Shown here: positions 12,754 to 49,272 of the stretch, one piece after another
Position numbering within the stretch: position 1 is the stretch's first letter
Layout: every line of letters starts with the position of its first letter
From: Thiothrix fructosivorans
Lineage (GTDB): Bacteria > Pseudomonadota > Gammaproteobacteria > Thiotrichales > Thiotrichaceae
Direction: 5' to 3'
DNA: 64,000 bases
Assembly: GCF_017349355.1 (NCBI RefSeq)
Contig: NZ_JAFMPM010000007.1
Span: forward strand, 1 to 64,000
The notes under the pieces: generated by a model
Databases searched by the model: none
What the model was told of the DNA's origin: nothing
Seen by the model: the letters and a program-made list of their open reading frames with translations, nothing else
Program-made: the position numbers and the translations under genes

Positions 12754-15700
12754 ATGTTAACTTCAGTGGTAAAAATCTTGTTGCGGCTATTTGTCATCAG
12801 TCTCATGAGCCTAGGGTATGGTGTGGTTTCGCCAGCGGCTGCCGCTGTGTCGATTAAGTTGCCGGAGAATGCGTTGCCTGCTATTCCCGCGCAGCCATTA
12901 CAGCTTGTACGTCCGCAAACGGATGCAGGGGTGCGCTATGACCGTATTAGCCCTGTCGTCAATGGGCAAGCGACTTATAACCCCGCGCTGTGTAATGTTG
13001 CTGCGTACTGGTCTGCGACTCAAGTAAGTGTGGGCGGGCGGGCTATCGGTAACGGTGTAGATGTCTGCAAGGTGCAGGCGCAAACTGATGACGGTGCACT
13101 CAAATTCCTCACTAAATGGCCACTCAACAATATCCATTACCCGTTGACCCCTGCACCGGCTTGGGCGCAGTTTCGTTTTTCGATTCCGCAAGGTCATACG
13201 GCTAGCACGTTGGAATACGAATTGTCGTGGTACAAACTGTTCGGTTCTATGCCTACGCATTGCCATCCTACGGAAATCGACTCTACCACAGGGCTGTGCA
13301 AACTGGATGTGAGTACCGACTGGCAACCGGATGTACCGGCGGGCTTGTTCTTGTTGTGGGCAAAACCGGGCGATAGTCAATATACCGTCACTGGGCCACA
13401 TGACCCGATTGAGAAAATCGGCTATAGCGGTAAACAGGTGTTTCAAGCGGCTGTTCCAGAAGCCATGCGTGGCGTGGATGAAGTGATCGTGACGCTGTTG
13501 ACCTATAACCAGTACACTAAAGCGTGTGAAAAAGCTAATCCGAGTGCCTGCACCACGCACGAGAATGAAAATCTGGAACTGCATTCCGTTAGCTTGAAGA
13601 CTACCCGCGCTTTGCAGCCATTGCATCAACCCGCCCCACAACACCCACGTCTTTTGGGAAATGGTGCGGCTTGGAAAGCCTACTGGCAACCGTTTGAGTC
13701 TTTGCCTTGTGTGAACAGCGGCCTTGATGCGGATTGGGGCGTGGTCTTTAATGCCAAAAATGTCTGGGACAAAAACACCAAAGGATATGCGCCTTGTCGG
13801 GGAGGTTCACCCACTGGCTTGCAAACGTTAGCTGATGCTGCTTTCTATTTGAATCCGCCGACGGATCCCGTGTGGAATCAAGATCGTGCCTTGCGGGTAT
13901 TGTTTCTGCTGCGGCAGTTGAAGCAATGCCAAAGCGAGGGCAGCGCTTGCACGTACAGTGCTGCTGAAACCCAAGCCTTACAGGCGGCTTTTATCGCGTA
14001 TGAAATGCGGCGTTTCCCGACAGTGGTGTGGGATTGGGGCTATAAATGCTTTGATCTTGGCACAGAACCCACCATGAAATTCTGGTCGCTGTTTGTGGAT
14101 GTGTTCTGGCATGACTTAGCCGCTGCCGATAAAAAAGCCATAGATACCAAACTCGGTGCACTGGCTGATTGTTATTTACAACAATATGCAGCCAAAGATT
14201 GGTCGATTTTCAATGGCAATAACTGGACACCCGTGCTGGGCAAGGGTGCAACCTATTGGGCATTAGCTTATTACCATGAAGATCCCCGGGCGCCCGTGGT
14301 ATTGGAAAAAGTGTTGGAAAGCCTATGGTTACACCGCGATTTCTACCTGACGGATGGGGCGTATATCGAAGGCATTGTCGAATACACCAATGTTTCCTAC
14401 TCTAGCCTGCGCGAAATCAATAATCTGGTGATGCAGGGCTTTGGTGTGCCACTGGAGAGTGTGCGCTGGGAGCGTATTGCTAAAACCGCCGATTGGTATC
14501 TGGATTTTATGACACCTGACGGTAGCATGGTCGATTTCGGTGATTCTTGGGAAAAACTTGGTTGGTACACACTCGACCCGCTCCACATGCTGTTGTGGGA
14601 AGAAATGATCGGCAAAAAAGCCATTGGCACGGTTAACCTTGATGCGTGCAAGGTACAGGAGTATTTCAGCAATAAATGGTTTTCCAAAGACCTAGAAGAT
14701 CCGTGGGCAGTGCAACCGTCCATGGCACGCGATTGGATTGGGTTGGCGGCGCAATGTCAGCGCACTACCCAGAAGGGAACGCGTACCAGCCTATTTACCG
14801 AGGCGTTGACTGGTTCGCTACGTCAGTATTTGCCGGGTAGCAGTACGTTGGCACAAAAAGAGGGATTGCGTTTCAAACAAGCGGATCAAACTTATCTCGC
14901 GGTGAGTGGTGTACCCAATGATTTCCCGCACCGTGAGTTGGATTTCGGTGGGCTGATTTGGTCAGCGTATGGCAATCGTTTGTTGTACGACTTTGGTTAC
15001 GGGGATATTGCCAAAACTGCCCAAGGAAAACCGTATTTGATAAAGGATGGTACGAACGAGTTGTTTGATAATCTGCCATTGGGTGCCAATACCTTGGTGG
15101 TTGAAAATGCGACACAAACGGGTTACAGCGGCGGCAGTTACAACAATGACACCATTAACAGTAGTCAGATTTACGGTGAACGGGGGCGTTTAGCCAAAGT
15201 GAATATTGGGGGATACGACGGTCTTCACCTTGATGCACAGGCGGTGTATGGGGCGAATGATGCTGAACTGGGTTGGTTGCGTTATTTCGACCGCTGGATG
15301 TTGTCGCTGAATGATGGCAATTATTTGGTGGTGGATGCGTTTGCCGTTAAGGCTGACCGAGGCGTGGCGGATGTGCAGGAATACTGGCATACCGCTGCCG
15401 AAACCGATACGGCGACCAGTTGCAGCTTTTCTCGCCAGAATGTGGCGATGACGCTGGAGAATGCCCAAAGTTTACGGCTGACACCAGAATGTGCGCGTCT
15501 TGAGCGCAATGCTGCTTCCAGCGTGGTGGGGAGGATCAGTGCGGCGTCCTTGCAGGCGGGTGCATTCAGCCTTGAGCCACACGTCATCGCCTACCGCAAT
15601 CGTATTGGTGGCATAACTTCACGCCAGCGGGCGCGTTTTAAACCGCTGAGTCCAGTCGGTGAAGATGTACGGGTTTTCTTATTGCAAGCAGCACCGCAGG

Positions 15701-16707
15701 CAGCACAATTACAAGCCGTGAGTGTGAAGAAAATGGATTGTGGTGGAATGCCCTGTTTTGATGTGGTGATGAATGGGCAAGCGCGGCGTTTGACGTTTGC
15801 ATACGCTAATACCCAATACAGTTTGGTTAATATTCAACCCGTTGCGACCGCTTTTGAAAATCAGAATGGGGTGAAGCCAACGACTGTGGTGGAATCCAAT
15901 AGCATTCAGATCAGTGGTTTAACCAAACCCGCTGCCTTGACGATCAGTGGGGGTGAGTATCGCCTTAATGGCAGCGCTTACACCAAAGCTAAAGGCACAG
16001 TGAAAGATGGCGATACGGTTCAAGTACGGCATACGGCTTCCAGCGCCTCCAACACCACTGTTACGACGACGCTGAAAGCAGGTACGAATACTTACACCTT
16101 CAAAAGTACGACACTGGTGATGGATAGTACGCCTGACCCGATCAGTTTTGTGCCGCAAACGGGTGTGAGCTTAAGCAGTTTGGTGGAATCGGCTGTTGTC
16201 ACAGTCAGCGGCATCAATACCACGCTGGCGCTCAGTATTACGGGTGGGGAATACCGTATCAATGGTGGGGTGTATACCAAGGCTAAAGGCACGCTGCAAA
16301 ACGGGGATACGTTGCAAATTCGGCATACGGCTTCCAGCAAATCCAACACCACTGTTACGACGACGCTGAAAGCAGGTACGAATACTTACACTTTCAAAAG
16401 TACGACACTGGTGGTGGATAGTACGCCTGACCCGATCAGTTTTACGCCGCAAACGGGTGTGAGCTTAAGTAGTCTGGTGGAATCGGCTGTTGTCACAGTC
16501 AGCGGCATCAATACCACGCTGGCGCTCAGTATTACGGGTGGGGAATACCGTATCAATGGTGGGGTGTATACCAAGGCTAAAGGCACGCTGCAAAACGGGG
16601 ATACGTTGCAAGTACGGCATACGGCGGCAACCAGCTCGCGCAAATCGATAACGACAACGCTGAAACTGGGTAGTACCTCAGTTAGTTTTAAAAGCACTAC
16701 AAAATAA
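12754..16707 (+). CDS. Secreted polysaccharide lyase-like protein (heparinase II/III / chondroitinase fold) with three C-terminal repeats
   Basis: It is a 1,317-residue exoprotein with a signal peptide (residues 1-31, ending SPAAAA). Residues 35-290 form a beta-rich N-terminal domain with several Cys. Residues about 310-675 are helical and resemble an (alpha/alpha) toroid (NGNNWTPVLGKGATYWALAY, DGAYIEGIVEYTNVSY, DGSMVDFGDSW). Residues about 700-985 are a beta-sandwich of the kind following the toroid in heparinase II/III and chondroitin lyases (ELDFGGLIWSAYGNRLLYD, DRWMLSLNDGNYLVVDAF). The likely role is beta-elimination cleavage of an acidic polysaccharide, by fold resemblance only. Residues 1033-1317 are three 98-residue Ig-like repeats ending FKSTTK. 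It is the first gene of an operon, 17 bp before the next. Confidence 0.7.
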   Translation: MLTSVVKILLRLFVISLMSLGYGVVSPAAAAVSIKLPENALPAIPAQPLQLVRPQTDAGVRYDRISPVVNGQATYNPALCNVAAYWSATQVSVGGRAIGNGVDVCKVQAQTDDGALKFLTKWPLNNIHYPLTPAPAWAQFRFSIPQGHTASTLEYELSWYKLFGSMPTHCHPTEIDSTTGLCKLDVSTDWQPDVPAGLFLLWAKPGDSQYTVTGPHDPIEKIGYSGKQVFQAAVPEAMRGVDEVIVTLLTYNQYTKACEKANPSACTTHENENLELHSVSLKTTRALQPLHQPAPQHPRLLGNGAAWKAYWQPFESLPCVNSGLDADWGVVFNAKNVWDKNTKGYAPCRGGSPTGLQTLADAAFYLNPPTDPVWNQDRALRVLFLLRQLKQCQSEGSACTYSAAETQALQAAFIAYEMRRFPTVVWDWGYKCFDLGTEPTMKFWSLFVDVFWHDLAAADKKAIDTKLGALADCYLQQYAAKDWSIFNGNNWTPVLGKGATYWALAYYHEDPRAPVVLEKVLESLWLHRDFYLTDGAYIEGIVEYTNVSYSSLREINNLVMQGFGVPLESVRWERIAKTADWYLDFMTPDGSMVDFGDSWEKLGWYTLDPLHMLLWEEMIGKKAIGTVNLDACKVQEYFSNKWFSKDLEDPWAVQPSMARDWIGLAAQCQRTTQKGTRTSLFTEALTGSLRQYLPGSSTLAQKEGLRFKQADQTYLAVSGVPNDFPHRELDFGGLIWSAYGNRLLYDFGYGDIAKTAQGKPYLIKDGTNELFDNLPLGANTLVVENATQTGYSGGSYNNDTINSSQIYGERGRLAKVNIGGYDGLHLDAQAVYGANDAELGWLRYFDRWMLSLNDGNYLVVDAFAVKADRGVADVQEYWHTAAETDTATSCSFSRQNVAMTLENAQSLRLTPECARLERNAASSVVGRISAASLQAGAFSLEPHVIAYRNRIGGITSRQRARFKPLSPVGEDVRVFLLQAAPQAAQLQAVSVKKMDCGGMPCFDVVMNGQARRLTFAYANTQYSLVNIQPVATAFENQNGVKPTTVVESNSIQISGLTKPAALTISGGEYRLNGSAYTKAKGTVKDGDTVQVRHTASSASNTTVTTTLKAGTNTYTFKSTTLVMDSTPDPISFVPQTGVSLSSLVESAVVTVSGINTTLALSITGGEYRINGGVYTKAKGTLQNGDTLQIRHTASSKSNTTVTTTLKAGTNTYTFKSTTLVVDSTPDPISFTPQTGVSLSSLVESAVVTVSGINTTLALSITGGEYRINGGVYTKAKGTLQNGDTLQVRHTAATSSRKSITTTLKLGSTSVSFKSTTK
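16051..16622 (+). repeat. Near-identical tandem repeat, 294-bp period
   Basis: The units starting at 16051 and 16345 are almost identical over most of their length, so two of the three C-terminal Ig-like repeats of the lyase-like protein are a recent duplication. 294 bp is exactly one 98-residue protein repeat. The second unit diverges at about 16622, where the terminal repeat acquires its own ending. Confidence 0.85.
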
Positions 16708-16724
16708 ACGTGCCGGAGGAAAAA

Positions 16725-19700: not shown

Positions 19701-22700
19701 GCAGCCAATGCCAATGCCGCCGCTCAACAGGAAATCCGCAATAAGATTATTCTGGATGCCAACAATAGTCGCATCCAGACACTTGCCAACCCTTATCAGA
19801 ACGGGGCGCGGTTGGATGTGCCGGACTGGCTGGGTTGGGGAACCTTTACCCAAAGCACGCTGTATGCCTTCCCGCTATTACAAGCATGGGCTTTGACGGG
19901 GGATGAAAAATACCGTGATACCGCCGCGTTAAACTTGGATGCGCAACTGGGGGCGAACCCGCTGGCTTTCAGTTTCATTACCGGCATTGGCAAACGTTAC
20001 CCGCATGATCCATTGCACACGGTATCCATACACGACGGTGTAGATGAACCTGTCCCTGGCATTCCTGTGTTTGGTATTTTCGCTCACATGAGCAATGGCA
20101 AGACCCCGCAACGTAAGGCGCAGGAAGATGCCAACAATTACCCCACCATGCTCAATACTGACGACCCTTACCCGATTTTACGGCGCTATACCGACGAGTC
20201 CGATTTGGTGGAAATGTCTGAATTCACCATTCAGGAAATGGCGCTTGCCACAGGGGTATTCGGGCTAATGGCTGAACCCTTGGGCGTTGATCCGCTCATA
20301 GATACGGACGGTGACGGAATACCCAATCCGCAGGATACCGATGATGATGGCGATGGTATGCCGGATACATGGGAAATCCAGTACGGTTTGAATGCGCTGG
20401 ATGCGGCTGATGCCAGTCTGGATAAAGATGGTGATGGCATTGCCAATCGTGAGGAATACCAACAAGGTACTGACCCAACGGTTAAAGATGGCAAACCTGA
20501 TTTGGTCGTTAGCATTGCACCCGTCACTAGCGTTACACCGGATACTTTTACTTCGCATGTCGTGACAGTGAGCAACACTGGCGTTAAGGCAGCGGCGGGC
20601 ATCACGCTAAACATACAGTCCCCAGATAAGGCAGAACAAGTGGCGTTCCAGCTTGAGCAAGGCGAAGCCGAATGCCCACTCAGTGTCCGTGCCGCTCTGA
20701 AGAATGGTTGCAGCCATCTACCGACAGGTGAAATGTTTTTGCTGGGCGAAATTGCCGCTGGTCAAACCGTGACCGTGACCGTTGTTAACCGTTACAGTGC
20801 CCAGACAATAGGCAGCGAGTTAAGGCTTAATGCCACGGTGACATCGAGCACACCAGAACAGAGCCTTGCCAATAATACGATCAGCTCGCTGTTTGTATTA
20901 CAGGCTAAACGTCTGCTGCAAGGCTGTGATTATCGCCAGATGGTACAGGTTTCTCCGTTCCCACAAACTGCCAATAGTCGGATTGCCAACCACTTCCATG
21001 CACTCACGTTTAGTCCCAGTAGTATCCCGCCGCTGACTTTGTTTGGTTATGGTGAAGAGGGGCAGCAAGTCATGCTTACGGGGGATGGTTTTCAATGGAA
21101 TGGGGTGGATGACTACGGTACTTATCCACCCAGCTTGTGGGCAGTCGCCAAGTCGGAAGTTGGCAATCGTCATGTTGGGGTTGCTACTCTGGGGGGGCTG
21201 TACTGGTCAGATGACCGTGTGACTTGGACACCAGCTACTTACCCCAGTACGGCACTATACGATGTCATTTATGCCAAGGGGCGCTATGTGGCTGTCGGGG
21301 CGCAAGGCACGATTCTCACCAGCAGTGATGGCAGCAACTGGCAACCTGTGCTCTCCGGCACGACTGCCAAACTGGCTTATGTCGACTATGGCAATAATGA
21401 GTTGGTGGCTGGTGGACAAGGTATTGTGCTTACCAGCCCCGATGGTTTGGTGTGGACAATTCGCACCAGCAATAGCGGAATCGATAGTGCCGCCCTCGAA
21501 TACGGCGCAGTCTGGAATGGCAGCCAATACCTGTTGTTTGATGCGGCGGGTGACACGCATGTATTGGCTGCCAATCTGACTAATCTAGCAGCAGCAACAC
21601 CATTCAGACCCACGGTAGATGGTGTAACGGAAAGCGCCACGGTACGTGCTTGGTCATCTGTCCACTGGCAGGATAACCAGTACATCGCCCTTACCAGCAA
21701 AGGTTTGCTGATTTCCAGCGATGGACATGCTTGGGTCACACAACAAGCATTGGATTATCCTTACATCTACCAGCGGCTCGGCGATAAAGCAGTGGTGGCG
21801 GGCAGTTATGGTAGCATTTGGGTCAGCGCTTGTGCGCCGATGACAACACTGCTTACGACCTTCCTTGAGCAACGGGATGTCAAACTCAGTACGCTGATGG
21901 AGTCCAACACCCTTAAGGTCAGTGGTTTAACGGGGTCAGTATCCCTCACTGTATCGGGTGGGGAATACCGCAAAAATGGTGGGGCGTACACCAAAACGAA
22001 AGGCACGGTGCAAAACGGTGATACGTTGCAGGTGCGGCATACCTCTTCCAGTAAATCCAATACGGCTGTTACCACAACCCTGAAGGCAGGTACGAATACC
22101 TACACATTCAAAAGCACGACCTTCGTTATGGATAGCACACCTGACCTCATCAACTGGATAGCCAAGACGGGGGTCACACCTACTAGTTTGGTGGAATCCA
22201 ATGTCATCACGCTGAGTGGCATTAATGTGCCTGTTGCGGTCAGTGTGACGGGGGGCGAATACCGTATCAACGGTGGGGCTTACACCAAAAGCAAGGGTAC
22301 TGCTAAAGTGGGTGATACGCTGCAACTGCGCCAGATCACGTCCAGCAAATCCAACACTACGGTGAAAACCACCCTGACGGTAGGGGGCGTAAAACCCGTG
22401 TTTAGCACCACCACGCTGGTCATTGATAGTACCCCCGATGCTTTCAGCTTCACTGCCCTTACCGGCATTGCGCTTAATAGCTGGGTCGAATCTGAAAGCA
22501 TCACCGTCAGCGGCATCAATACAGCAGTTGCCGTCAGTATCAGTGGTGGAGAGTACAGCGTTAATGGCGGCGAATACACCAAGGCTAAAGGCGTTGCAAA
22601 GGCGGGAGATACGTTGCAAGTGCGCCATATGAGTTCCAAAAGCAGCAAAAAAACGGTCACGACCAGCTTAACCGTTGGCACCGTTAAAGCAGCGTTCAAA

Positions 22701-22715
22701 AGTACCACTCAGTAA
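16725..22715 (+). CDS. Secreted GH9 glucanase with inserted beta-propeller, TSP3 repeats, second propeller and three C-terminal repeats
   Basis: It has 1,996 residues from the ATG at 16725, preceded by GGAGG at ideal spacing. A signal peptide ends AAWAE. Order: jelly-roll domain (25-205); Ig-like domain (206-318); start of the CelD-type Ig domain (KVNQVGYLPERPKVGYV, 320-337); a propeller of repeated WAVGDNGTI-type blades (344-622); rest of the CelD Ig domain (628-701); GH9 catalytic domain (702-1184) with HDAGDYGKY holding the catalytic Asp pair and EMSEFTIQEMA near the expected acid Glu; calcium-binding TSP3-like repeats (1192-1252); DUF11-like domain; a second propeller (1387-1707); three Ig-like repeats ending FKSTTQ. 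It probably hydrolyses beta-1,4-glucan or a related polymer outside the cell. Confidence 0.85.
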   Translation: MQIRYGLWSILLFWILSPLAAWAEALPHYGVGDMLIYDGETGSAPVLFEDAGNGSNRCLFYLESTPNAGLNGNNALQLKPDKWHGPAYRLYCGGGSRRDFSAHDILEFYFRCPAGYSTPPVFHLSTWDRSSNTVNILDFIEGGVIDTSWRRVQIPLNKLATPAWTLGNVETLAWPTDDKNRTCYVDNIALRDITRPTVITQGETAPTPVSNRVLRLTFSEAYAASSIRTLANYTLHSTTDSTYSSPVPASDTGMHYRMQHFDNSGIPKNRYDLFLQFAKPLKNGQEYTLTVQGVQDLSDNTMAVTQYRFTYNDRQQLNTNIKVNQVGYLPERPKVGYVGGYLGDLGGGVWAVGTQGNVLFHDPQNGWQAQSTPVTSTLRAVTATREDSAWAVGDGGVILHWNGQQWTRVTSPVSTNLLAIAFDPLNQGWIVGEGGVILRYTGSAWVTVVSPTASSLRGVLAETGSAAWAVGDNGTIIRWNGVKWVMDDNVTNVTLHAVGGSKADDLWAVGDNGTILQRQYGHWKPWADKPTGTPHLYSLAWNHSGAVWAAGDNGALWYKTGFGSNAFTALASGSTTHLRAVVRQNSRQFWGSDANGALITNTGGNWQTAGDLHSGINGMFALPYGALRLPDVLPNVSIQNAQDGQTVLSVPLTLRYANWHLSGEDVYQFDFSALTTAGEYRAYIPGIGVSDTFKVSKDTLNSVAYTTARGLFYQRSGTALTEPYAEARFTRPLSHEYAENGRKIDGVFDKSLSTSPLYHNESIGGLKDVHGGWHDAGDYGKYMPTAATALWYLLTAYDMRSEQFRDNAWNIPESTNGVPDLLDEARWELDWIARLQDSDGGVYHKVTSECWFGDMPHKETTPRHIYAKTTHDTALAAALFASAARVWKPYDATLANRYLQQARLAWSFLQAHPSNTPVGGFKNVANNCSGEYNDADDSDNRLWAAAELNRTTGESAFRQYFDNWWSSNSHTWGWHEWQHFYKRAYWAYLRTPAANANAAAQQEIRNKIILDANNSRIQTLANPYQNGARLDVPDWLGWGTFTQSTLYAFPLLQAWALTGDEKYRDTAALNLDAQLGANPLAFSFITGIGKRYPHDPLHTVSIHDGVDEPVPGIPVFGIFAHMSNGKTPQRKAQEDANNYPTMLNTDDPYPILRRYTDESDLVEMSEFTIQEMALATGVFGLMAEPLGVDPLIDTDGDGIPNPQDTDDDGDGMPDTWEIQYGLNALDAADASLDKDGDGIANREEYQQGTDPTVKDGKPDLVVSIAPVTSVTPDTFTSHVVTVSNTGVKAAAGITLNIQSPDKAEQVAFQLEQGEAECPLSVRAALKNGCSHLPTGEMFLLGEIAAGQTVTVTVVNRYSAQTIGSELRLNATVTSSTPEQSLANNTISSLFVLQAKRLLQGCDYRQMVQVSPFPQTANSRIANHFHALTFSPSSIPPLTLFGYGEEGQQVMLTGDGFQWNGVDDYGTYPPSLWAVAKSEVGNRHVGVATLGGLYWSDDRVTWTPATYPSTALYDVIYAKGRYVAVGAQGTILTSSDGSNWQPVLSGTTAKLAYVDYGNNELVAGGQGIVLTSPDGLVWTIRTSNSGIDSAALEYGAVWNGSQYLLFDAAGDTHVLAANLTNLAAATPFRPTVDGVTESATVRAWSSVHWQDNQYIALTSKGLLISSDGHAWVTQQALDYPYIYQRLGDKAVVAGSYGSIWVSACAPMTTLLTTFLEQRDVKLSTLMESNTLKVSGLTGSVSLTVSGGEYRKNGGAYTKTKGTVQNGDTLQVRHTSSSKSNTAVTTTLKAGTNTYTFKSTTFVMDSTPDLINWIAKTGVTPTSLVESNVITLSGINVPVAVSVTGGEYRINGGAYTKSKGTAKVGDTLQLRQITSSKSNTTVKTTLTVGGVKPVFSTTTLVIDSTPDAFSFTALTGIALNSWVESESITVSGINTAVAVSISGGEYSVNGGEYTKAKGVAKAGDTLQVRHMSSKSSKKTVTTSLTVGTVKAAFKSTTQ

Positions 22716-22742: not shown

Positions 22743-24791
22743 GTGAAAACAATACTCATCCGATTCGTAATAATGGCATGGAATATCTGCTGGGTTGGGC
22801 TAATGTCACCCGCTTATGCGGGAATTGCTATTAATCTTGAGGAAAATGCCACTGCATGGGGGGGGTATCAAGAGGGCAATCCTACTTGGGTTATCGAAAA
22901 TTCGTTGGCGAACTCCCCCACTGGCAAGGCGTTACGTTGCGGTCTGACGGGTGGCGATCCTTATTCCAATATTCACTGCTACCGTAACTTACCAGCCGAT
23001 CCAGATGCCCATTTCTTTACACTGGAGCTGGATTTTTATCTGCCTGAAACCAGCTTCAATAATCAGGGGATGCCTTCGCGTATTCAAGCGTTGGAATTCA
23101 CCATGAACCAGTGGCAAGGGGGGAAGCGCTACGAATGGGCATTGCAGTGGATGAATGTTGGTAGTAATGGCCCGCAATGGCGTTATTGGAATCCTCACCA
23201 AAGCGAACGCTGGGTGGCGACACCTATCCAGCAAGCTTTGGCGGTCAAGCAGTGGCATCACTTGCAGATGGAAGGTGAAATCCGTTCTGGTCAAGTCTAT
23301 TACCGTTATTTCATTATTGATGGTGCACGGCATGAACTGAATATGACGGTCGCCCCCGTCCTGACACCCAATGACCCTGACCGCTTGGCAGTAGCGGTAC
23401 AGGCAGATGGCAATTATGCGCAGGATGCCTATGACCTATTGATCGACAAGGTTAACTTTTATCACCATCCCAAGCTATCCATGCTATTGCCCCTGTACCA
23501 ATACCCTAGCCATTGGAATGCAAACAGCTATATCTGGGATGATGTCGCGGCGGCACAAGCCAAAGTCGATATTACAGCGATTATTAACCCTGCGAACGGG
23601 CCGGGTGCATCCGGTACACCCAATAGCGACTACCAGATAGGAATGCAGGCATTACGTACCGCAGGTGTCACCCTGTTAGGTTATGTTCCCACCTGCTGGG
23701 GCAATTCTCAAGCACAGGCTAGCTGTTATAACACCCGTTCATTGGTAGATATGAAGCGGGACATCAAAGCGTATGCCGATCATTTTGCGGTGCACGGCAT
23801 TTTCTTCGACGAGGCGGCAACTGACTCCAAGCAGGTCAGCTTTTATCAGGAACTCAGCGGCTATGCTCGTTCATTAGGATTGCCGTTGATCGTGCTGAAC
23901 CCTGGCATTACACCTGCTGCGTCTTATGTCAGTAACGATGTGGTAGCACAGAGTGCAGTTACTTTTGAATCTTCCTATGCTGAGTGGTTGCAGGCAATCA
24001 AGCCAAATGATTGGACGCAGACCACCGCCGCCCGCCAGTCTGCTTTGCTGGTTTATGACGTTCCTGCCAATGCTGTATCAGCGGTCGTCAATCAGGCACT
24101 GCAATGGAATTATGGCTACCTTTACTTCACCGACGATGGCAATGATGGCAACCCCTGGGATAGCTTGCCTACTTATTGGCATTCGTTGCTTGATTATCTG
24201 GTCAACCTGCAAACCCCGCCAAACAATACATTTAACAGCCAAATAGGTGTTAAACCGACCGCCTTGATCGAATCCAATACCATTACACTTAGCGGTTTGA
24301 GTGCTACTACTGCTCTCACCGTGACAGGTGGTGAATACCGTAAGAATGGTGGAGCGTACACCAAAGCCAAAGGTACGGTGAACAATGGCGATACTTTACA
24401 GGTGCGGCACACGGCTTCCAGTAAATCCAATACCACTGTTACCACGACGGTCAAGGTAGGCAAGAATGTTTACGCTTTTAAAAGTACGACGTTCGTGATC
24501 GACAGTACGCCTACCCCGATTAGTTTTACGCCGCAGACGGGGGTGAGTTTAAACAGTTGGGTGGAATCTGCCATTGTTACGATCAGTGGCATCAATGTTG
24601 CTATTCCTGTGACGGTCAGCAATGGGGAATACCGTCTCAACGGTGGGGCGTATACCAAAGTCAAAGGGCTGTTACAGGCGGGGGATAGCTTGCAGGTACG
24701 GCATACAGCGGCGGCTCGTGCGGGGAAGATGGTTACTACTAGCCTGAAACTAGGCAATACGTCAGTCAGTTTTAAAAGCACAACAAAATAG
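22743..24791 (+). CDS. Secreted Spherulin-4 (GH135-like) protein with jelly-roll domain and two C-terminal repeats
   Basis: It has 682 residues. The GTG start at 22743 has AAGGG seven bases upstream. A signal peptide ends SPAYAG. Residues about 27-235 form a beta jelly-roll with [15 protein letters not shown] and [11 protein letters not shown], probably glycan-binding. Residues 246-486 match Spherulin-4: [47 protein letters not shown] and PLIVLNPGI. The fungal Sph3 enzymes of this family (GH135) cut alpha-1,4-linked N-acetylgalactosamine polymers; the acidic pair in FFDEA fits the active site. Two Ig-like repeats (495-682) end in FKSTTK. It lies 27 bp after the GH9 gene in the same operon. 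Substrate is inferred from the family only. Confidence 0.8.
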
Positions 24792-24808: not shown

Positions 24809-27800
24809 ATGATGAAGATGGCAACCACTTGGTTAGTAACACTGTTGTTAGGGCTTGCGCTATCTGATCTAGCGGTAGCCGAGGGTACAACGTTACGGTT
24901 GGGTAGCAATCTTGGTGGCATTTCGGATTGGTCTACTCAACGCCCGTTTACCAATTTGTTTAAGCAAGCGCGTCCGTGGCTCACTCAATGTGACAATAGC
25001 CGTGATGCTGATTGCAATGGACGCTGGGAAACCCATGAGAACGCTAAACTTGACCTCGATGCGGATGGTTGGGTGAAATCACTTCCAGACCCTGCCACAC
25101 CGGGTTATTCCATTGCTGGCACAGTGTTGGATGTACCGAAAAACTTCCCTGCCGGACGTTACTTATTGCTGTATGAGGGGGAGGGGACGCTGCATTATCG
25201 GCTGGGCGCACAAAAAATTGCTGCTGAATCCACGCGAGGGCGTGATGTACTGGATATTGACTTGAACCGTGGTCTGATTCAGATACAGATCATGGACACC
25301 GACCCGAATAAAACAGGGAATTATATCCGCAATATGCGCCTGATCCGGCAAGCCGATGAGGGTATTTACCCGCAGCAGATATTCAACCCCGATTTTATTT
25401 CCCGTATCCAGCCATACCAAACGCTGCGCTTTATGGACTGGATGAATACCAATGGCAATGCACAACAACGTTGGACAGACAGGGCAAAACCAACGGCGGC
25501 TACCTATGCCACTTACGGAAATCCGATTGGCGCTCCGCTAGAAATAATGGTGCAACTCGCTAATGAAACCCGCAAACCCGCGTGGTTCAATATGCCGCAC
25601 AAGGCGGATGATGACTACATGCGTCAGTTTGCGACCTTGGTTCGGGATACGCTTGATGCCACGCTGCCGATTTACGTGGAATATTCCAATGAAGTTTGGA
25701 ATACCCAGTTTAGCCAGCACGCGTGGATACGTGACCAAGCCAAGGCGCTGTGGTCGGGTGGCACAGACAGCGATTACACGAAAGTGATTAATTGGTATGG
25801 CAAGCGTACTGCAGAAATGTGTGACATTTGGAAAACCGCTTTTGGAGCGCAAGCCAGTCGGGTGACTTGTGTGCTAGGTGCGCAAGCGGCTAATACTTGG
25901 ACAGCTTCTGCCGCCTTGGACTGTTCGTTGTGGGATAAAAAACCGTGTAGCACCCATGGCATTGGCGCTCTCGCCATTGCACCTTACTTCGGTTACTACC
26001 TTGGTCTTCCCACCCATCAAGCCGAGGTCAATGCTTGGACGGGTGCAGCGGATGGCGGACTGGATAAGCTATTTGCCGAGCTAACCACAGGGGGCGTTTT
26101 GGCGGGCGGAGCAGCCGGTGGTGCAATCGCGGAATCATGGCGTTGGATGGATGCTTACAACACGTTGGCAAGCACCCGCCGCTTGCAATTATTAGGTTAT
26201 GAGGGCGGACAACACTTGGTTGGTGTGGGTGGTGTGGAAAATGACAGCGCATTAACCAATCTCTTCATCAATGCTAACCGCGACCCGCGCATGGGGGCGT
26301 TGTATCTCGATTACCTGCGTGGTTGGGAGGCGCGTGGCGGTGGCTTGATGATGAATTACACCGACATTGGCATTCCCAGCAAATGGGGCAGTTGGGGTGT
26401 ACTGGAGCATGTGCTACAAACCCATTCCCCCAAGTACGATGCTTTGTTGGATTATCTCAACGGTACGGATTATGAAGCGGTGGTGACGCTGACTGCTTCT
26501 GCTACAGGCATGTCCGAAAAAGGCGGTAGTGTGACGTTGAGCGCACACTTGGATAAAGCCGTTGCCACATCCGTTACGCTCGCTCTGAATGTTGCGGGTA
26601 CAGCAACCCAAGGAACTGATTACCGTCTTGCTACCGCATCGTTGTTGATTCCCGCCGGTAGTACGAGCGGCACAGTACGACTGGATGCTATCGACGATAG
26701 TTTGATTGAGGCCAGTGAAAAGATCACTGTCACGATTGGCACTATTGTCGGTGATGCACGCACCATCTCATCCAGCTTGCAAATCAGTCTGACACAGGAG
26801 GATAGCGATGTTGATGGGATGTCGGATGACTGGGAACGCCATTACGGTTTAAATCCTAACGATGCGGCTGATGCCAAGCTGGATTCCGACGGGGACGGTA
26901 CGAGTAATCAGGCGGAGCATTTGGCTGGCACTGATCCCAAAACACGCGACAGTGCTGCATCGTTGTTAGGCACTAACCTCAGCGGTGTGTCGGACTGGAG
27001 TTCGCAAATGCCGTTCCTTGATCTGTTCAAAATGTCGCGTACTTGGATTACTCAGTGTGCTTATTGGGTGGCAAAACCTGATCCCGGCTGTACCGGACAG
27101 TGGGATACGGGCGAACAGGCGCAGCTTAATCTGGATGCGGAGGGTTGGGTGAAGTCCCTGCCAAAATCGGAAGATGCGCCGATTTTTACCCGTGTGGCCA
27201 CTTACTGGGCGATGTACCCTGAATTCAAAGGCGGGCGCTACGTGGTGTTGTATGACGGCGAAGGCACGCTCCAGTACCACTTTTCTGCCCACAAACTGGA
27301 GGCAGAATCCAGAACAGGGCGTGATGTCATTAATATTGTGCCGGATAAGAATAACGGTACGGCTATTTTGATGACATTGACGGCGACTGACCCGCAACAT
27401 AATGGCAATTACTTACGCAATATCCGCATGATTCCAGAAGCGTATGCCACTACTTACGCCCAACATGTATTCAACCCCGATTTTCTGGAACGTACCCGCC
27501 CGTTTCAGGTATTACGTTTTATGGATTGGATGGCGACTAATGGCAGTACGCAGGAACATTGGACGGAGCGCCCGTTACCCAGTGATGCTCGCTATGCACA
27601 TTACGGCTATCAATCCGGCATTCCGCTGGAAATCATGTTGCAACTGGCGAACGATTTGGATAAATCCGCGTGGTTCAACATGCCGCACAAAGCCGATGAT
27701 GATTATATACGCCAGTTTGCGATCCAAGTGCGTGACAATCTGAAGTCGCACAATAAGGTGTATGTGGAATATTCCAACGAAGTTTGGAACAGCATTTTTG

Positions 27801-29386
27801 CGCAAAGTACTTACGCGCTCCAGCAAGGTCGGGCGTTATGGCCTGATACAGTTGCAGACGATCATACGGTACGCCTTAACTGGTACGGTAAGCGCAGTGC
27901 GGAAATGTGCCACATTTGGAAAGAGGTGTTCGGCAATAATGCCAACCGTGTGGTATGCGTGATGGGCGGGCAGGCAGCGTGGACATACCCAGCGGAACAG
28001 GCACTAGCTTGCCCTTTGTGGAAAGAAGGTCCTTGTAGCCACTACGGTATCGACACCCTAGCGATTGCACCGTATTTCGGTGGACATTTGGGCGATCGGA
28101 CAGTGACTGCGGAACTGGATGGCTGGTTAAAAGATGCGGACGGTGGCATGGGCAAATTGTTCGAGGAATTGCAGCACGGCAATGTACTTAGTAATAGCCC
28201 AGATACCAGTGCTATCCAACAAGTAGCTGGTTGGATCAACAACCATCAGCAGTTAGCGCAACAACACGGCTTGCACCTGATTTCTTATGAAGGTGGGCAG
28301 CATATCGCCGACATTTGGGGAACACTCAGCACGGGGGTGATTAACCTGTTTACACAAGCCAACCGTGATCCGCGTATGGGGCAGCTTTATAGCGAGTATT
28401 TGGCAGCGTGGAAACAGCAAGGCGGTGGGTTATTTACGCATTTTACCGACATCGGTACGCCGGGGCGCTACGGAGCATGGGGGGCGTTGGAGCATGTTGG
28501 GCAAACCACGTCACCCAAATATGCAGCCTTGCTGCAATATCTGACCGACAATAATACTGATCGTGACGGTGATGGTGTGCCTAATGAACTGGATGCATTC
28601 CCGAATGATCCTGCTGAATCCGTGGATACCGACAAGGATGGCATGGGTAATAATGCTGATAGTGATGATGATAATGACGGGATGCCGGATAGTTGGGAAA
28701 CCCTGTATGGTTTGAATCCGTTGGATGCCAGCGACGCTAGTAGCGATAAAGATGCCGATGGAGTCAGCAACCTCGCTGAGTATAAACAGGGTTCTAACCC
28801 GTTAGTCCCAGACAGCAAATTGGCTTTTATCGAGCAAACGGGGGTTTTACCTTCGACCCTGATTGAATCAAACACTCTTACACTCAGAGGATTGACGAGT
28901 GCTACGGTTATTAGCATTACGGGGGGGGAATATCGCAAGAATAGTGGGGTATACACTAAGGCGAAAGGTACAGTTCAAAATGGTGATAACGTGCAAATAC
29001 GGCATACGTCTTCCAGCAAGTCCAAGACAACGCTGACGAGCACTGTGAAACTGGGTAAGCAAACGCTGACATTTAAAAGCACTACGCTGGTGATTGATAC
29101 GACACCAGACATTTTTAGCTTTGCTGCTAAAACCTCCGTAGCCCTGAACACTTGGGTAGAGTCTGCTCCTATTACCATCAGTGGTATCAATGTGCCTACA
29201 GCAGTCAGTGTCAGTGGTGGGGAATACAGCGTTAATGGCGGTGCTTACACCAAAGCCAAAGGTATGCTTAAAGCCAGCGATGTCTTACGAGTACGGCACT
29301 TGAGTTCCAAAAGTGCCAAGAAAACCGTAACCACGACCCTAACAGTCGGCAAGACCAAAGCAACTTTCAAAACTACAACAAAATAA
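24809..29386 (+). CDS. Secreted protein with two clan-A glycosidase-like modules and two C-terminal repeats
   Basis: It has 1,525 residues and a signal peptide ending AVAEG. It contains the same 520-residue module twice (28-555 and 716-1249). Each begins [11 protein letters not shown] or [10 protein letters not shown], passes [13 protein letters not shown], has [10 protein letters not shown] with the Asn-Glu pair expected of a clan GH-A acid/base, and later YEGGQH with a candidate nucleophile Glu (about 463 and 1160). Both copies keep both Glu residues. Between them are a Calx-beta-like domain (556-660) and a calcium-binding TSP3-like segment; a second TSP3 segment follows module 2. Two Ig-like repeats end FKTTTK. 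No GH family number can be assigned safely. Confidence 0.75.
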
Positions 29387-29466: not shown

Positions 29467-29543
29467 TGTATATTCAGTGTGTGAATGAGTTTGGGTGAAT
29501 TATGCTCATCGACGATCATGGGCAAGTAAGGGGGGCTTTTAAC

Positions 29544-38185: not shown

Positions 38186-38836
38186 TCATAGTGAGAAGAC
38201 CTTAACCATGCAGGTGAGCGGGGCATTGTTGGGGAAGCAGTAGTTGCCTTGGGAGTCGATCATTTTCCAGTGGGAGATGACGGTGCTGGGGTAGTTGGGG
38301 GCGGTGAAGGTGATGGCGATTTCGATTTGTCCGTTGGGTGGGGTGTCAGGTAGTGGGTAATGGTTTTGGGGGGATTTGAGACCGTGTTTTACGATTGTGC
38401 CGTCGGGGTGGCGCACTTGCAGGAGGTCATCAATGCAGATGAGACTACGCCCTTGCCAGTGGACTGTGCCGGTGTTCTGAATCAGCCATTTTTTGACGAA
38501 GGTGGTGTTGATAGAAACCATGTCGCCATCGGGAAAGGTCACATCCTTGACGAAGCCGATGTCGTCCCCGGTGGTGGAACTGGATGTACGGCATTCTGTG
38601 CCGGTGTGGCAGGCAAAGTCAGCGTAGCGGAAGTAGGCACTGATCAGTTCCATTGGGTGGATGTTGAGTGCATCGGCAATTTTTATCAGCGTTTTGAACT
38701 TGGCTTCTTCTACGCTGCCGTCTAGCAGATTGTGGACGGCTTTGCGGCTGAGTCCTACTTCTTCTGCGAATTTGCTAATGGATATTGATTTTTCAAGGAT
38801 TTTTCGGCGTAGGAATATGCCAAAGTCTGTTTGCAT
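38186..38836 (-). CDS. XRE-family regulator with NBR1-like Ig domain
   Basis: From the ATG at 38836 (MQTDFGIFLRRK) it has 216 residues; an upstream start at 38884 adds 16 residues with no family resemblance. Residues 1-62 are an XRE/Cro helix-turn-helix (ISKFAEEVGLSRKAVHNLLDG). Residues about 85-205 have the NBR1-type Ig pattern: FVKDVTFPDGDMV, then FVKKWLIQNTGTVHWQG and IEIAITFTAPNYPSTVISHW. In eukaryotes that fold binds proteins in autophagy; bacterial XRE-NBR1 fusions exist but their ligand is unknown. It may repress itself or the neighbouring lipase-giant pair, which starts about 430 bp away in the opposite direction. Confidence 0.75.
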   Translation of the reverse strand: MQTDFGIFLRRKILEKSISISKFAEEVGLSRKAVHNLLDGSVEEAKFKTLIKIADALNIHPMELISAYFRYADFACHTGTECRTSSSTTGDDIGFVKDVTFPDGDMVSINTTFVKKWLIQNTGTVHWQGRSLICIDDLLQVRHPDGTIVKHGLKSPQNHYPLPDTPPNGQIEIAITFTAPNYPSTVISHWKMIDSQGNYCFPNNAPLTCMVKVFSL

Positions 38837-39019
38837 GGTTAGGTCTCGTGCTGTGATAGTGTGAAATTGAGTAGTCAAGTACACAGTTTAACCCTACAAG
38901 TAAACCTTTTGTCCAATAAGTAAAAGAAATGGGTTAACATCGAATTGTCAAGTACCAATAATCACCGTTTATCGGATAATTCTGTACACGACAAACAATT
39001 CTGACAACTTGTAACCAAT

Positions 39020-40424: not shown

Positions 40425-40434
40425 GGTATGACTT

Positions 40435-46400: not shown

Positions 46401-49272
46401 CGGTATAGCCGAAACCTTTATATCCACCACGAAAGTCAATACCCCGCCAACAGCAAAAGATCAGGTGTTGTCAGTGACTGACGGTAAGGCATTGGCATTT
46501 ACCTTGGAAGGCAGTGATACTGATGGTGATACTCTCACCTACAAGATTACCCAATCTGCTACCAATGGCACACTGCTAGGCTCTGGTAATCAGTTTACCT
46601 ACACACCGCAAGCCAAGTGGAGTGGCACAGAGGTAATCACGTTTACGGTCTCAGATGGCAACGCCGTTTCTGCCCCCGCAACCATCCGTATTACGGTAAC
46701 GGCAGTGGATACAACCCCTGATGCGATAGTATTCACACCAAAAACCGATGTGGATTTGTCATCCCTGATGGAATCCAATGCTGTCAAGATCAGCGGCATC
46801 AACACAAACGTGCCGATTAGCATCACTGGCGGTGAATACAGTATTGACGGGGCGGCTTATACCAGTGCTAGTGCCACCGTCAGCACTGGTGCAACGCTCA
46901 AAGTACGGCACACCAGTGCAGCCAGTCATGCCAGCAAAACCGAGACAGTCCTAACAGTTGGGGATGTCAGCGCAACCTTCACGTCGTTGACCCGTGCTGA
47001 ACAGACAAAAGCCGATTTGGTGGTGTCTGTTACAAATCAGCCCAATGTAACCCCAGATGAGTTTACGTCTCACCTTATTCGTATTACCAATCAAGGTAAT
47101 GCCACGGCGGAGGATGTCATCGTTAAGGTCATGTCTCCCGCTGATGCAAATGGTGATGGTAAATTATTGACCGAGTTTGTTGCCCGTAACGCCAGTCAAG
47201 GTACATTGGATTGTCCACTTAGCCATACCGACAGTAACAGCAAAGATTGTTTGGTTTCTCCACCGACTAAATTGGACACGTTTATGGTGGGTACTATCCC
47301 CGCAGGTCAAACCGCCACGGTCGAAGTCATTAACCGCTATTCCGGCTACACCGCAGGCAACATGCTCAACGTGAGTGCTAACGCGACCACCAGCACAGCG
47401 GAAACCGTTACCACCAACAACACCAGCGCCCAAGCCTTCACCCTACAGGCAAAACGGCTGGTGCAAGGCTGCGACTACCGCAACATGGCGAATGTTTCCC
47501 CCTACCCACAAACCGAGTCACGCATCGCCAACCACTTCCACGCCCTAACGTTTGCGAGCAAAGACACTAACCCAATCACTCTGTTCGGCTACAGCGACAC
47601 AGGCGAACAAGCCATTCTCAACGGTGACGGTTTCCAATGGAGCGGCATTCTCCAAAACGGCACATACCCCAGCAATATCTGGGCAGTTGCCAAAGCCGAC
47701 ACCGGCACACATCACGTTGGCGTATCGCTGCTCGGTGGTTTGTTCTGGTCAGACGACCGCATCACTTGGACACCCGTCACTGCTTTCCAAGGCAACGCCC
47801 TCAACGACATCGCCTACGCGAAAGGTCGTTACGTTGCCGTTGGCGCACAAGGCACCATCCTCACCAGTGTGGACGGCATCAACTGGCAGCAAGCCACCTC
47901 TGGCACGACAGCGAAACTTGCTTACGTTGATACGGGCAACAACGAGTTCGTGGTCGGTGGGCAAGGCATTATCCTCTCCAGTACCGATGGTTTGGTATGG
48001 ACAACCCGCGCCACCAACACAGGGCAAGATGCCTCGGCACTAGAACACGGCGCGGTTTGGAACGGTAGCCAATACTTGTTGTTTGACTCCGCAGGCAATA
48101 GCCATCTCATGGCTGCCAACCTCAGTAGCCTTACTACGACCGCCGCCATCAAGCCAACTGTGGACGGTGTGACAGAAGTCGCCACTGCCCGCACATGGTC
48201 AGCAATCTACTGGCAAGACAACCAGTACATCGCACTGACTACCCAAGGCTTGCTCACCTCCAGTGACGGACGTGCATGGACAACGCAACAAGCGATAGCA
48301 TACCCCTACACCTACCAACGCCTCGCCGACAAAGCCGTCATTGCCGGTGCTCACGGTAGTATCTGGGCAGCAGCCTGTGCGCCAGTTAGCGTCACGCCAC
48401 CACCAACGCTGAACTACTTCGTTGAACAAAAAGACGTGTCCCCTGCTACCTTGCTGGAGTCCAACACCCTCACCGTTAGTGGGTTAGCAGGTGCAACAAC
48501 GCTCACCATCACTGGTGGTGAGTACCGTAAAAATGGCGCGGCATACACCAAAGCCAAAGGCACGGTACAAAATGGTGATACCTTGCAAGTGCGTCACACT
48601 ACATCCAGCAAGTCCACCACTGCTGTCACAACCACGCTAAAGCTAGGGAAAGTGGCGATTGCCTTCAAAAGCACTACTCAGGTGATTGATAGTGTGCCGG
48701 ATGCCTTCAGCTTCAATAGTCAGACGGATGTGCCATCGTTGACATGGATGGAGTCGAATGTTGTCACCGTCAGCGGCGTAAATGCACCCATCGCTATTAG
48801 TATTAGCGGTGGCGAATACCGTATCAATAACGGCAGTTATACTAAAGCCAAAGGTACGGTACGTAACGGCGATACCTTGCAAGTACGTCACGCCTCATCC
48901 ACTAAATCCAAGACGACAATAACCACGACCTTGAAACTGGGTACGCAATCATTCACTTTTAAAAGCACGACGTTGGTGATCGACAGTGTACCGGATGCGC
49001 TTAGCTTCAATGCACTAACGGATGTTGCGCGTAACGCTTGGCAAGAATCTGCCAGTGTTACGGTTAGCGGCATCAATGCGCCGCTTGCGATCAGCATCAG
49101 TGGTGGTGAATACAGCATCAACAAGGGGACTTACACCAAGGCAAAAGGCATGGTGAAAGCAGGGGATACCTTGCAAGTGCGGCATTTGAGTGCTAAAAGT
49201 GCGAAAAAATCGGTCACTACCACATTAACGTTAGGCAAAAGCAAGGTGGTATTCAAAAGCACTACCCAGTGA
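40435..49272 (+). CDS. Giant secreted multidomain adhesin-like protein (2,945 residues) with shared C-terminal repeats
   Basis: The GTG at 40435 has GAGGT upstream; the signal peptide ends LKADS. Order by position: CARDB-like Ig (40.56-40.88 kb), TSP3-like segment, YCF48-type propeller (41.3-42.2 kb), TSP3, IPT-like domain, CARDB domain (42.7-43.05), pre-peptidase C-terminal domain (43.06-43.43), TSP3 and IPT-like units again to 44.7 kb. Then Ig-like repeats alternate with PKD-like (TANAGIDQTVDSGANV) and cadherin-like domains to 47.0 kb, followed by a DUF11-like domain, a second propeller (47.45-48.4) and three Ig-like repeats ending FKSTTQ. The last 850 residues parallel the end of the GH9 protein. 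No catalytic domain is recognised. Its first 1.7 kb is much more AT-rich than the rest. Confidence 0.85.
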   Translation: MKISLLILLMLLFPPILKADSLNDLFGKGEQSEDFDIFIEIASATAKINSKLITHTIILKNNGATPRAININCYLYKNRTNTNPINSYYESINVGAYENFVFERSINASNEGLHTLSCIADEENSFLEKDRTNNYSSLVETIVYSTTSDFDADQISDYWEIEHGLNPEDKTDAMLDSDGDGVSNKIEFNWGTLPNNKDSYISPQILYSKIHTISDNYFIVDIASTIIGSNFDEMNKRFSVSFGFSKDKLDRKSDIIYDSFFDNKDVYHVLIKVLVNESQLYLYRPSFIFDKNITIEGEIKKYFHQSTCSYSEWGVGHAFDAQINKLWFNEEIRIAISNDSIYTSIDGVSWELSYKKNNALFIDIFWDGAQFLVLNNIDKNIYASVDGKVWQVYDTNLSFNPIAISWNGKEYIVVGNNGGIAYSRNSQDWVDVDSKTNNHLTDVTWYGDEKIFLVSGGNGTVLKSQDGKEWTPVLFLNSNAILQLESNGKSIVATDHVFGIYFYQNGKWNDTGSRASGYRIAWDNYHYVIPGTQYTLISDDGQLWRRVTAIQSDPYGVHFDGEYMYVAGRSGILYQNRCDVAANDRDGDGVPNDQDSFPDDKNESKDNDKDGFGDNADTDDDNDGMLDTWEQQYSFDQLNSADAGTDADNDGFTNKQEHDANAHPRDAKSYPVKAKVSTVIPETANVGEKITVIVTGTDLPDTLDMQLADCAGIQKLAGATATEVKFTCTFSSAGTKSGTIKDKAGSNYTLKTFSLNVSEVLPDLRPVNLQIPASVKAGASINVSVDIENIGGTATPASSLGVWLSEDDVLSGNEALPPVPIPAVLTSTSANVSFDVYIPEHITSNYRLFVKADAAQVVTESNEDNNQITANLVMEESCIAYNEPDSQFTAIPIGLNTSIQRSICPAGDVDWLTFTLPSPSSLRLETSGASGHDTFMTLYDWKFDSNTAKSDDDSGEGYYSKLLFDCTAPLPAGKYIVKINQYADNARIPDYSLHLQDVKACVTDSDGDGFLDDNDAFPNDPKEWLDTDGDGSGNNADSDDDNDGMPDTWEEQHGFDSLNKTDADQDADNDGFTNKQEHDAGTDPKDAKSYPITAKVYSVEPLVADVNENTVFTVKGIKLPNTLAFWIGYCEGLTKLPNATETQVQFSCTPSRAEKLQGLVKDKSGGSLLMEFFVEASVLDKDQDGIKDTLDNCPEIKNTDQKDLDRDKIGDVCDTDRDGDSVSNDQDAFPDDKAESKDNDKDGIGNNADPDDDNDGMPDTWEEQHGLDPLNSTDATQDADKDSFTNKQEYDAGTDPKNAKSYPVTATISSVTPNTAIVGKRLELVITGKNLTGSIDVTLSGCDDMQIRTDGVYPQLSPKSALKNAVAPPTAPPPPPGTLPPLPGVGDLVNQFTASCMPTAAGLKTGVIRDKAGSDYILKQFEVTVANVDTTPEPFPFTHQTGVALSALISSNEITVSGINTATAISVTGGKYSINGGAYVSTAGTVSNGDKVKVQHTSSASYATKTETVVTIGGIAETFISTTKVNNAPTANAGIDQTVDSGANVTLTGSGADVDGDAIAHNWVQTAGTPTVSLMGAATSSPSFTAPQVSQDTKFTFTLTVSDGKGGTMSDTVDVTVKAAVDTKPDLFTFTDQIGVAFSSIMTSNEITVSGINTATAIAVTGGKYSINGGAYVSTAGTVSNGDKVKVQHMSSASYATKTETVVTIGGIAETFISTTKVNTPPTAQGSDETLNEDTPKTITLIATDSEDDKLTYTIVTQPKNGQAPLIGNTVTYKPNTNFNGKDSFTFKANDGNTDSAVATVNLQINAVNDAPTANAGIDQTVDSGANVTLTGSGADVDGDAIAHNWVQTAGTPTVSLIGATTSSPSFTAPQVSQDTKFTFTLTVSDGKGGTMSDSVDVTVKAAVDTKPDLFTFTDQIGVAFSSIMTSNEITVSGINTVTAIAVTGGKYSINGGGYVSTAGTVSNGDKVKVQHTSSASYATKTETVVTIGGIAETFISTTKVNTPPTAKDQVLSVTDGKALAFTLEGSDTDGDTLTYKITQSATNGTLLGSGNQFTYTPQAKWSGTEVITFTVSDGNAVSAPATIRITVTAVDTTPDAIVFTPKTDVDLSSLMESNAVKISGINTNVPISITGGEYSIDGAAYTSASATVSTGATLKVRHTSAASHASKTETVLTVGDVSATFTSLTRAEQTKADLVVSVTNQPNVTPDEFTSHLIRITNQGNATAEDVIVKVMSPADANGDGKLLTEFVARNASQGTLDCPLSHTDSNSKDCLVSPPTKLDTFMVGTIPAGQTATVEVINRYSGYTAGNMLNVSANATTSTAETVTTNNTSAQAFTLQAKRLVQGCDYRNMANVSPYPQTESRIANHFHALTFASKDTNPITLFGYSDTGEQAILNGDGFQWSGILQNGTYPSNIWAVAKADTGTHHVGVSLLGGLFWSDDRITWTPVTAFQGNALNDIAYAKGRYVAVGAQGTILTSVDGINWQQATSGTTAKLAYVDTGNNEFVVGGQGIILSSTDGLVWTTRATNTGQDASALEHGAVWNGSQYLLFDSAGNSHLMAANLSSLTTTAAIKPTVDGVTEVATARTWSAIYWQDNQYIALTTQGLLTSSDGRAWTTQQAIAYPYTYQRLADKAVIAGAHGSIWAAACAPVSVTPPPTLNYFVEQKDVSPATLLESNTLTVSGLAGATTLTITGGEYRKNGAAYTKAKGTVQNGDTLQVRHTTSSKSTTAVTTTLKLGKVAIAFKSTTQVIDSVPDAFSFNSQTDVPSLTWMESNVVTVSGVNAPIAISISGGEYRINNGSYTKAKGTVRNGDTLQVRHASSTKSKTTITTTLKLGTQSFTFKSTTLVIDSVPDALSFNALTDVARNAWQESASVTVSGINAPLAISISGGEYSINKGTYTKAKGMVKAGDTLQVRHLSAKSAKKSVTTTLTLGKSKVVFKSTTQ
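45019..45602 (+). repeat. Long direct repeat, copy 1 (584 bp)
   Basis: It encodes one PKD-like domain plus one Ig-like repeat and is nearly identical to 45868-46451, with only scattered single-base differences. The Ig-like half has a third close copy at about 44746-45008. Confidence 0.85.
45868..46451 (+). repeat. Long direct repeat, copy 2 (584 bp)
   Basis: This is the second copy of the PKD-like plus Ig-like unit of the giant gene, separated from copy 1 by a single cadherin-like domain. High identity makes this region prone to recombination and to assembly collapse. Confidence 0.85.

Follow-up and report, generated by a model that had tools for sequence, protein, structure and literature searches.

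What might hold six exported proteins with unlike bodies together when all of them end in the same module? This question is raised by the first 64,000 nucleotides of contig NZ_JAFMPM010000007.1 of Thiothrix fructosivorans (the whole stretch is called the window here), which encode a lyase-like protein (P1), a GH9 enzyme (P2), a Spherulin4 protein (P3), a protein with two glycosidase-like units (P4), a CAP lipoprotein (P5), and a giant adhesin-like protein (P6) (Table 1). Their export signals were judged by eye and not by a program. To our knowledge, within a limited literature search, the way in which sheathed filaments position and remodel enzymes acting on their own sheath is an open question. 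We give roughly even chances to the reading that P1 to P6 are an exported set for surface polysaccharide and matrix work in a sheathed filament, with different bodies mounted on one exchangeable C-terminal module that keeps them at one extracellular place. The locus provides testable parts in a named species: a separable tail, six cargos, and a tail that differs naturally in a sister species.

A profile built from the copies in the six proteins found 22 significant copies of a repeat of about 98 residues (independent E-values from 9.1e-47 to 1.1e-37), three each in P1 and P2, two each in P3 and P4, five in P5 (two generic and three tail-type), and seven in P6 (four internal and three in the tail). 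The core motif GGEY[RS] occurred 15 times in the DNA, against 0.05 occurrences expected in shuffles. The last copy stopped at profile position 92 in all six proteins, where FK[ST]T[TA][KQ] is followed by the stop codon. A preliminary description, made from the sequence without database searches, had named this common ending and had also placed four of the genes in one tight operon. Both claims were borne out, as the intergenic gaps from P1 to P4 were 2, 27, and 17 nt (by open reading frame coordinates), making one tight run. P5 starts 115 nt past P4, and P6 lies another 7.6 kb on, beyond gnd-zwf-pgl and other genes.

The tail is an ordered cassette, in that the first copies of unrelated proteins are closer to one another than to the last copies of their own proteins: the first tail copies shared 57 to 71% protein identity across the six proteins, compared with 42 to 52% between first and last copies inside one protein. 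In a tree, all eight first copies of the island (six from the window and two from another Thiothrix genome, G013) formed one clade (support 100/96), and the last copies of six of the eight island proteins clustered with weak support (98/31). When the tail copies of G013 were compared with those of the own genome, the ratio of nonsynonymous to synonymous substitution rates (dN/dS) was low in two orthologue pairs (0.08 to 0.20, rough values since the dS of P4 is near saturation). A structure model of two copies (predicted local distance difference test, pLDDT, 95.2) was all beta with its last strand at residues 181 to 189 of 190, and immunoglobulin (Ig)-type tandems were among the best matches. 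The model thus shows the tail as predicted Ig-like domains, the last beta strand of which meets the stop codon. No Pfam family of the bacterial Ig-like kind covers the tails; Ig_TRAPPC10, the only family near its cut-off there (27.8 against 27 bits in P5 with no single stretch passing, and below it in P1 and P6), was taken as a chance match.

The matching loci of other Thiothrix genomes revealed that the tails differ between species. G013 keeps the order P4, CAP, gnd, zwf, pgl, hemB, with the Ig cassette on both P4 and CAP. In the sister species G014, the locus runs from hrcA through a GH9 protein, RCC1 and Lcl_C proteins, the P4 orthologue, and a protein joining the P3 N-terminal domain (70% identity over 221 aa) to GH5, then through an M12B peptidase, a subtilase, a helix-turn-helix (HTH) regulator (by eye), and a protein with M23 and SLH matches, to a P6-like protein with an SLH match, an AAA-ATPase, gnd, zwf, and hemB. 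The bodies are well conserved: the GH9 body is 78% identical to P2 residues 8 to 1264, the P4 orthologue 80% identical over P4 residues 29 to 1334, and the P6-like body 83% identical to P6 over 213 aa. However, these three proteins, together with the P3-N plus GH5 protein, the M12B peptidase, and the subtilase, end in a short hydrophobic tail, xPIIMxLLxx-stop, which is preceded by TSP3 repeats in five of the six and by a weak Lcl_C-like stretch in one. An exact-pattern search of the 16 genus genomes placed all six G014 matches inside 27.6 kb and found two in G007 and none in the remaining 14 (own genome and G013 among them) after three TGG-ended matches were dropped; the reversed-pattern control gave one match overall. 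The two tails of G007 belong to a small TSP3-rich protein (L197 4322-4951) and a 1334-aa protein that is SLH-bearing by eye (L198 4594-8598).

Since P4 is about as similar to its G014 orthologue (80%) as to that of G013 (81 to 83% for the units), the change of tail is not due to greater distance. It is direct for three bodies (P2, P4, and, in part, P6); the three remaining G014 proteins are other cargo ending in the PIIM tail. In P4 and its G014 orthologue, TSP3-type calcium loops come before the Ig tail and the PIIM tail, respectively. The tail of CAP also varies with place: it is the Ig cassette in the island (own genome and G013) and a set of cysteine-bearing repeats at another locus (G002, G008, and G014). 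As unlike bodies differ in tail together between species, the other shared tail at the G014 locus makes a shared place for the tailed proteins more likely.

We picture the proposed set as follows. Each body is fused to an ordered stack of two to three Ig-like domains ending at the last beta strand, and this stack would hold the enzymes and the adhesin at one extracellular place, most likely the surface polysaccharide of the producer itself. The held enzymes could then trim or remodel this polymer close to the cell, a part proposed for the Ra/CHDL domain in the Ply glycanases and Rap lectins of Rhizobium. The sheath is the presumed docking place of P1 to P6, and a docking partner and the substrate are putative as well. 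The guess of a sheathed, Thiothrix-like host was correct: the host is T. fructosivorans, and one report describes Thiothrix as filaments with a mucous sheath (PMC8570282). The sheath layers of T. nivea were described in a 2011 paper as of unknown structure (PMC3368414). Because of the N-termini, read by eye, and the secretins of the genome (two matches over the cut-off), the exit route of P1 to P6 is probably Sec plus type II secretion.

The two units of P4 are 52% identical to each other and belong to a glycosidase-like family that gave no Pfam match over its cut-off, no PDB sequence at E ≤ 1, and, for unit 1, no NCBIfam match at E ≤ 0.1. Glu 270 and Glu 440, of the NE/YEGG motif pair (counting residue 1 of unit 1 as position 1), were invariant in all 18 aligned rows. 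The NE and YEGG glutamates may be the acid/base and the nucleophile of a clan GH-A TIM barrel, and the unit is a candidate clan GH-A-like glycosidase. It was present in every one of the 63 host-family genomes, with 3 to 14 matches each (E ≤ 1e-10), and in 11 of 369 genomes of a class sample (E ≤ 1e-30), three of them of the host family, i.e., in 8 of 366 others; at most four candidates per genome were scored in the class sample, so copy numbers there are minima and a few weak carriers may be missed. A scan of named genomes gave 25 loci, in Crenothrix polyspora, Methylococcaceae, Hydrococcus, an Oscillatoriales cyanobacterium, an Anaerolineae genome, a Pseudomonadales genome, Marinagarivorans, and alphaproteobacteria. 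Neighbour genes were listed for seven of the 25, and five of these seven loci lie in polysaccharide clusters. At four loci, Pfam matches of 20 neighbours comprised Wzx-type, WecG, GT2, GT4, hexapeptide, and sulfotransferase families; one neighbour had no match. The fifth locus (L137) has by eye the gene order of L138. The family stands beside polysaccharide-synthesis genes in unrelated bacteria. A Thalassovita relative (L142 5020-7887) ends in RTX calcium repeats, so the C-terminal modules joined to this enzyme family vary from group to group.

Outside the six proteins, the repeat is used in more than one way. The own genome had 42 profile matches, i.e., the 22 of the window, 13 in four further proteins (four in a C39-like peptidase, five and three in two GH5 proteins, and one in a protein that is papain-like by eye), and seven pieces in a noisy duplicate at the end of contig C8. 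One GH5 protein with related repeats is carried by plasmid pTfr153 (NZ_CP072750.1) of T. fructosivorans, to which the first 11,000 bases of contig C4 of the own genome are 100.0% identical. The repeat was present in 10 of the 16 genus genomes, the own one included (E ≤ 1e-5), and in 11 of 63 family genomes. The preliminary description held that random positions in unrelated cytoplasmic proteins would refute its idea of a shared place; 18 carriers read outside the window were instead mostly exported-looking hydrolases and peptidases by eye. An exception is an 840-aa carrier of G012 with no clear signal at the chosen start and no recognised enzyme. It had also been expected that the repeat would always be C-terminal on exported enzymes, which holds in part: of the 24 family carriers read, 23 of which belong to the genus, 16 end no more than four residues past the last copy and 12 end exactly there, whereas eight do not. 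A wider profile, run on 369 class genomes with at most 13 candidates scored in each, matched in 20 of them, two being of the own family; 18 carriers from 17 of the other 18 genomes were read, and one of these carriers runs off its contig. A naked repeat at the end of the protein was found in 16 of the 23 genus carriers but in none of the 17 readable carriers elsewhere in Gammaproteobacteria; naked C-terminal use is accordingly a habit of the genus Thiothrix, as far as sampled.

Several observations weigh against one common docking place. As an extracellular module, the generic repeat is common, scattered over Gammaproteobacteria, and no private address; it occurs mid-protein or near the N-terminus in other bacteria, and the eight family carriers just mentioned lack the C-terminal position as well. 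The Ig tail also stands on three non-island genes of the own genome (the C39-like peptidase and the two GH5 genes), in other parts of the tree. Six of the 16 genus genomes gave no repeat at the threshold used, and since it was found in only 10, the repeat is not needed for the way of life of the genus in general. No binding partner or ligand for the tail was found, and gene conversion between neighbours could alone make the tails alike. Among the P4-unit loci, two of the seven with listed neighbours (L129 and L130) are not in a polysaccharide cluster, and five further loci of the host family have housekeeping neighbours by eye, with one glycosyltransferase-like fragment at an edge. P1 was found in only 1 of 274 class genomes, the own genome (E ≤ 1e-20). 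The earlier idea that the shared tail directs the proteins to one place is favoured by the exchange of the tail set in G014 and by the polysaccharide clusters around P4-unit relatives, and weakened by the wide spread of the repeat.

The main rival is a passive stalk homogenised by gene conversion, in which the Ig-like domains act as spacers, raising or stabilising the enzymes, likeness is a product of conversion between neighbours, and no common docking place exists. We find this doubtful, as a spacer leaves unexplained that the stop codon directly follows the last copy in 12 of the 24 family carriers, that in G014 the stack gives way to a short hydrophobic tail on the same bodies, found there on unlike neighbours too, and that copy order is kept across different bodies. 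It is possible, although we lean against it, that the enzymes scavenge, i.e., digest foreign plant, algal, or microbial polymers as food, with the tail holding them to the food or to the cell, an idea that fits every reading of the tail. Among polymer feeders, GH9, GH5, and lyase folds are usual, and a GH5 with related repeats is found on pTfr153; yet the P4-unit relatives at five of seven named loci lie in polysaccharide-synthesis clusters, the unit occurs throughout the host family, and reading the longer open reading frames of the window by eye revealed no sugar-uptake gene, though no dedicated search for one was made.

Two further possibilities give the tail a more specific task. The island could mark surface enzymes and adhesin with species-specific address tags, species swapping the whole tag set (Ig versus PIIM) and each tag fitting a sheath or outer-membrane partner of its own; we regard this as rather unlikely, but, if true, Gammaproteobacteria would have a new system of docking or sorting, and the P4 unit would represent a new family of self-polysaccharide glycosidases throughout the host family. 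Very unlikely, in our view, is a C-terminal export signal, with an outer-membrane secretion machine reading the last Ig-like domain as the type IX secretion system (T9SS) reads its C-terminal domain (CTD). T9SS cargo resembles the window proteins in being of Sec type, with an Ig-like domain at the extreme C-terminus uniting unlike proteins, according to PMC4804311; the window tails are likewise modelled to end in such a domain (pLDDT 95, all beta), and the weak clustering of their last copies fits a signal. However, the host is gammaproteobacterial, the repeat is internal in many relatives and comes in several copies per protein, no T9SS family was among the NCBIfam matches of P1 to P6 at E ≤ 1e-3, and SprA_N had no match in the genome, nor in the control genomes.

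For the shared docking place that we favour, the closest analogue is the Rap/Ply system of Rhizobium leguminosarum; the tails would work alike, the kinship being one of analogy. There, according to PMC9298526, adhesive lectins share a beta domain of 100 to 120 residues with beta-1,4-glycanases, where it sits in the C-terminal region (PlyA and PlyB). RapA2 binds polysaccharide made by the producer itself, and activity of the Ply glycanases is confined to the cell surface. In both cases, one beta domain unites glycan enzymes and adhesin-type proteins. In contrast to the PrsDE type I secretion of that system, the window proteins have Sec-type N-termini (by eye), and their tails are ordered multicopy stacks ending at the stop codon, encoded by clustered genes and replaced by another tail in a sister species. 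No cadherin family was found in Pfam scans of P1 to P5, and the best cadherin stretches of P6 lie outside its tail; no direct comparison with Ra sequences was made. The dockerin of cellulosomes is a C-terminal module common to many unlike glycan-active enzymes, which the window tails resemble in being shared by unlike enzymes and, in P4 and its G014 orthologue, in the TSP3-type calcium loops ahead of both kinds of tail; Pfam scans of P1 to P6 and the six G014 proteins gave no dockerin or cohesin match, and no scaffold was found. GlyGly-CTERM and PEP-CTERM are interchangeable C-terminal sorting tails on exported proteins, and 7 of the 17 class carriers of the repeat end by eye in hydrophobic and basic tails of this look, but the C-termini of P1 to P6, read by eye, lack a Gly-rich motif, a membrane helix, and a basic end. 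Generic bacterial Ig-like repeats are alike in fold and tandem use, and differ in that their Pfam families leave the window tails uncovered.

Of the labels given in the preliminary description, GH9, Spherulin4, and CAP have Pfam support. P2 matched PF00759 (GH9; 200.5 bits against a cut-off of 27.7) and P3 matched PF12138 (Spherulin4; 160.9 against 30.2). P1 rests on a heparinase II/III-like PDB match (8khv, E 1.1e-4 across 162 residues, phmmer); its residues 1 to 1030 gave no Pfam match at E ≤ 0.1, including to a heparinase II/III-like family profile, and the double glycosidase P4 lacks a Pfam match over the cut-off. The CAP label of P5 barely passed in the first frame only (PF00188, 21.6 against 21.1 bits), and the gene is frame-broken as assembled. 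The CAP orthologue of G013 (L071 9014-12431) is frame-broken elsewhere in the gene, and those of G002, G008, and G014 are single frames; the break may be an assembly error or repeated decay.

Table 1. Positions of the six exported proteins, their parts, and a neighbouring regulator in the window
Feature	Position	Strand	Content or basis
P1, lyase-like, 1317 aa	12754..16707	+	Export signal by eye, heparinase II/III-like middle, 3-repeat tail
P1 tail cassette, 3 copies, end FKSTTK-stop	15844..16707	+	Repeat profile
P2, GH9 enzyme, 2001 aa	16710..22715	+	CelD_N, PSII_BNR, TSP3, DUF11; 3-repeat tail
P2 tail cassette, 3 copies, end FKSTTQ-stop	21852..22715	+	Repeat profile
P3, Spherulin4 (GH135-type), 682 aa	22743..24791	+	Pfam; 2-repeat tail
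P3 tail cassette, 2 copies, end FKSTTK-stop	24222..24791	+	Repeat profile
P4, 1525 aa	24809..29386	+	Two unnamed glycosidase-like units, Calx-beta and TSP3 linkers, 2-repeat tail
P4 unit 1	24884..26488	+	NE and YEGG motifs conserved
P4 unit 2	26954..28540	+	NE and YEGG motifs conserved
P4 tail cassette, 2 copies, end FKTTTK-stop	28820..29386	+	Repeat profile
P5, CAP lipoprotein	29502..32881	+	Two frames, 29502-30437 and 30119-32881; 2 generic and 3 tail-type repeats
P5 tail cassette, 3 copies, end FKSTAQ-stop	32021..32881	+	Repeat profile
P6, giant adhesin-like, 2945 aa	40435..49272	+	CARDB, PPC, TSP3, PKD, cadherin-like; 4 internal generic repeats, 3-repeat tail
P6 tail cassette, 3 copies, end FKSTTQ-stop	48412..49272	+	Repeat profile
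HTH regulator with NBR1-type Ig domain	38186..38884	-	Pfam

P2 and P6 have a common C-terminal block (60.5% identity over 755 columns) with DUF11-like and, by eye, BNR-like parts and three repeats. The HTH-NBR1 regulator adjoins tailed exoprotein genes in three genomes, namely in the window, at L184 2940-3590, and at L198 12277-12942, with the domain assigned by Pfam in the window and L198 and by eye in L184; relatives were seen in G014 (by eye) and in G007 (55% identical). The end of contig C8 (G000:C8:1459000-1467533, L043) is a 99.5% identical, indel-rich copy of window positions 10431 to 19007, so that the two contigs seem to overlap, and the frame-broken P1 copy on C8 looks like an assembly artefact. 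Two nearly identical IS66-type transposase stretches lie at positions 1 to 689 and 9910 to 11487 of the window, and the same element is found on plasmid pTfr153 at 99.9%.
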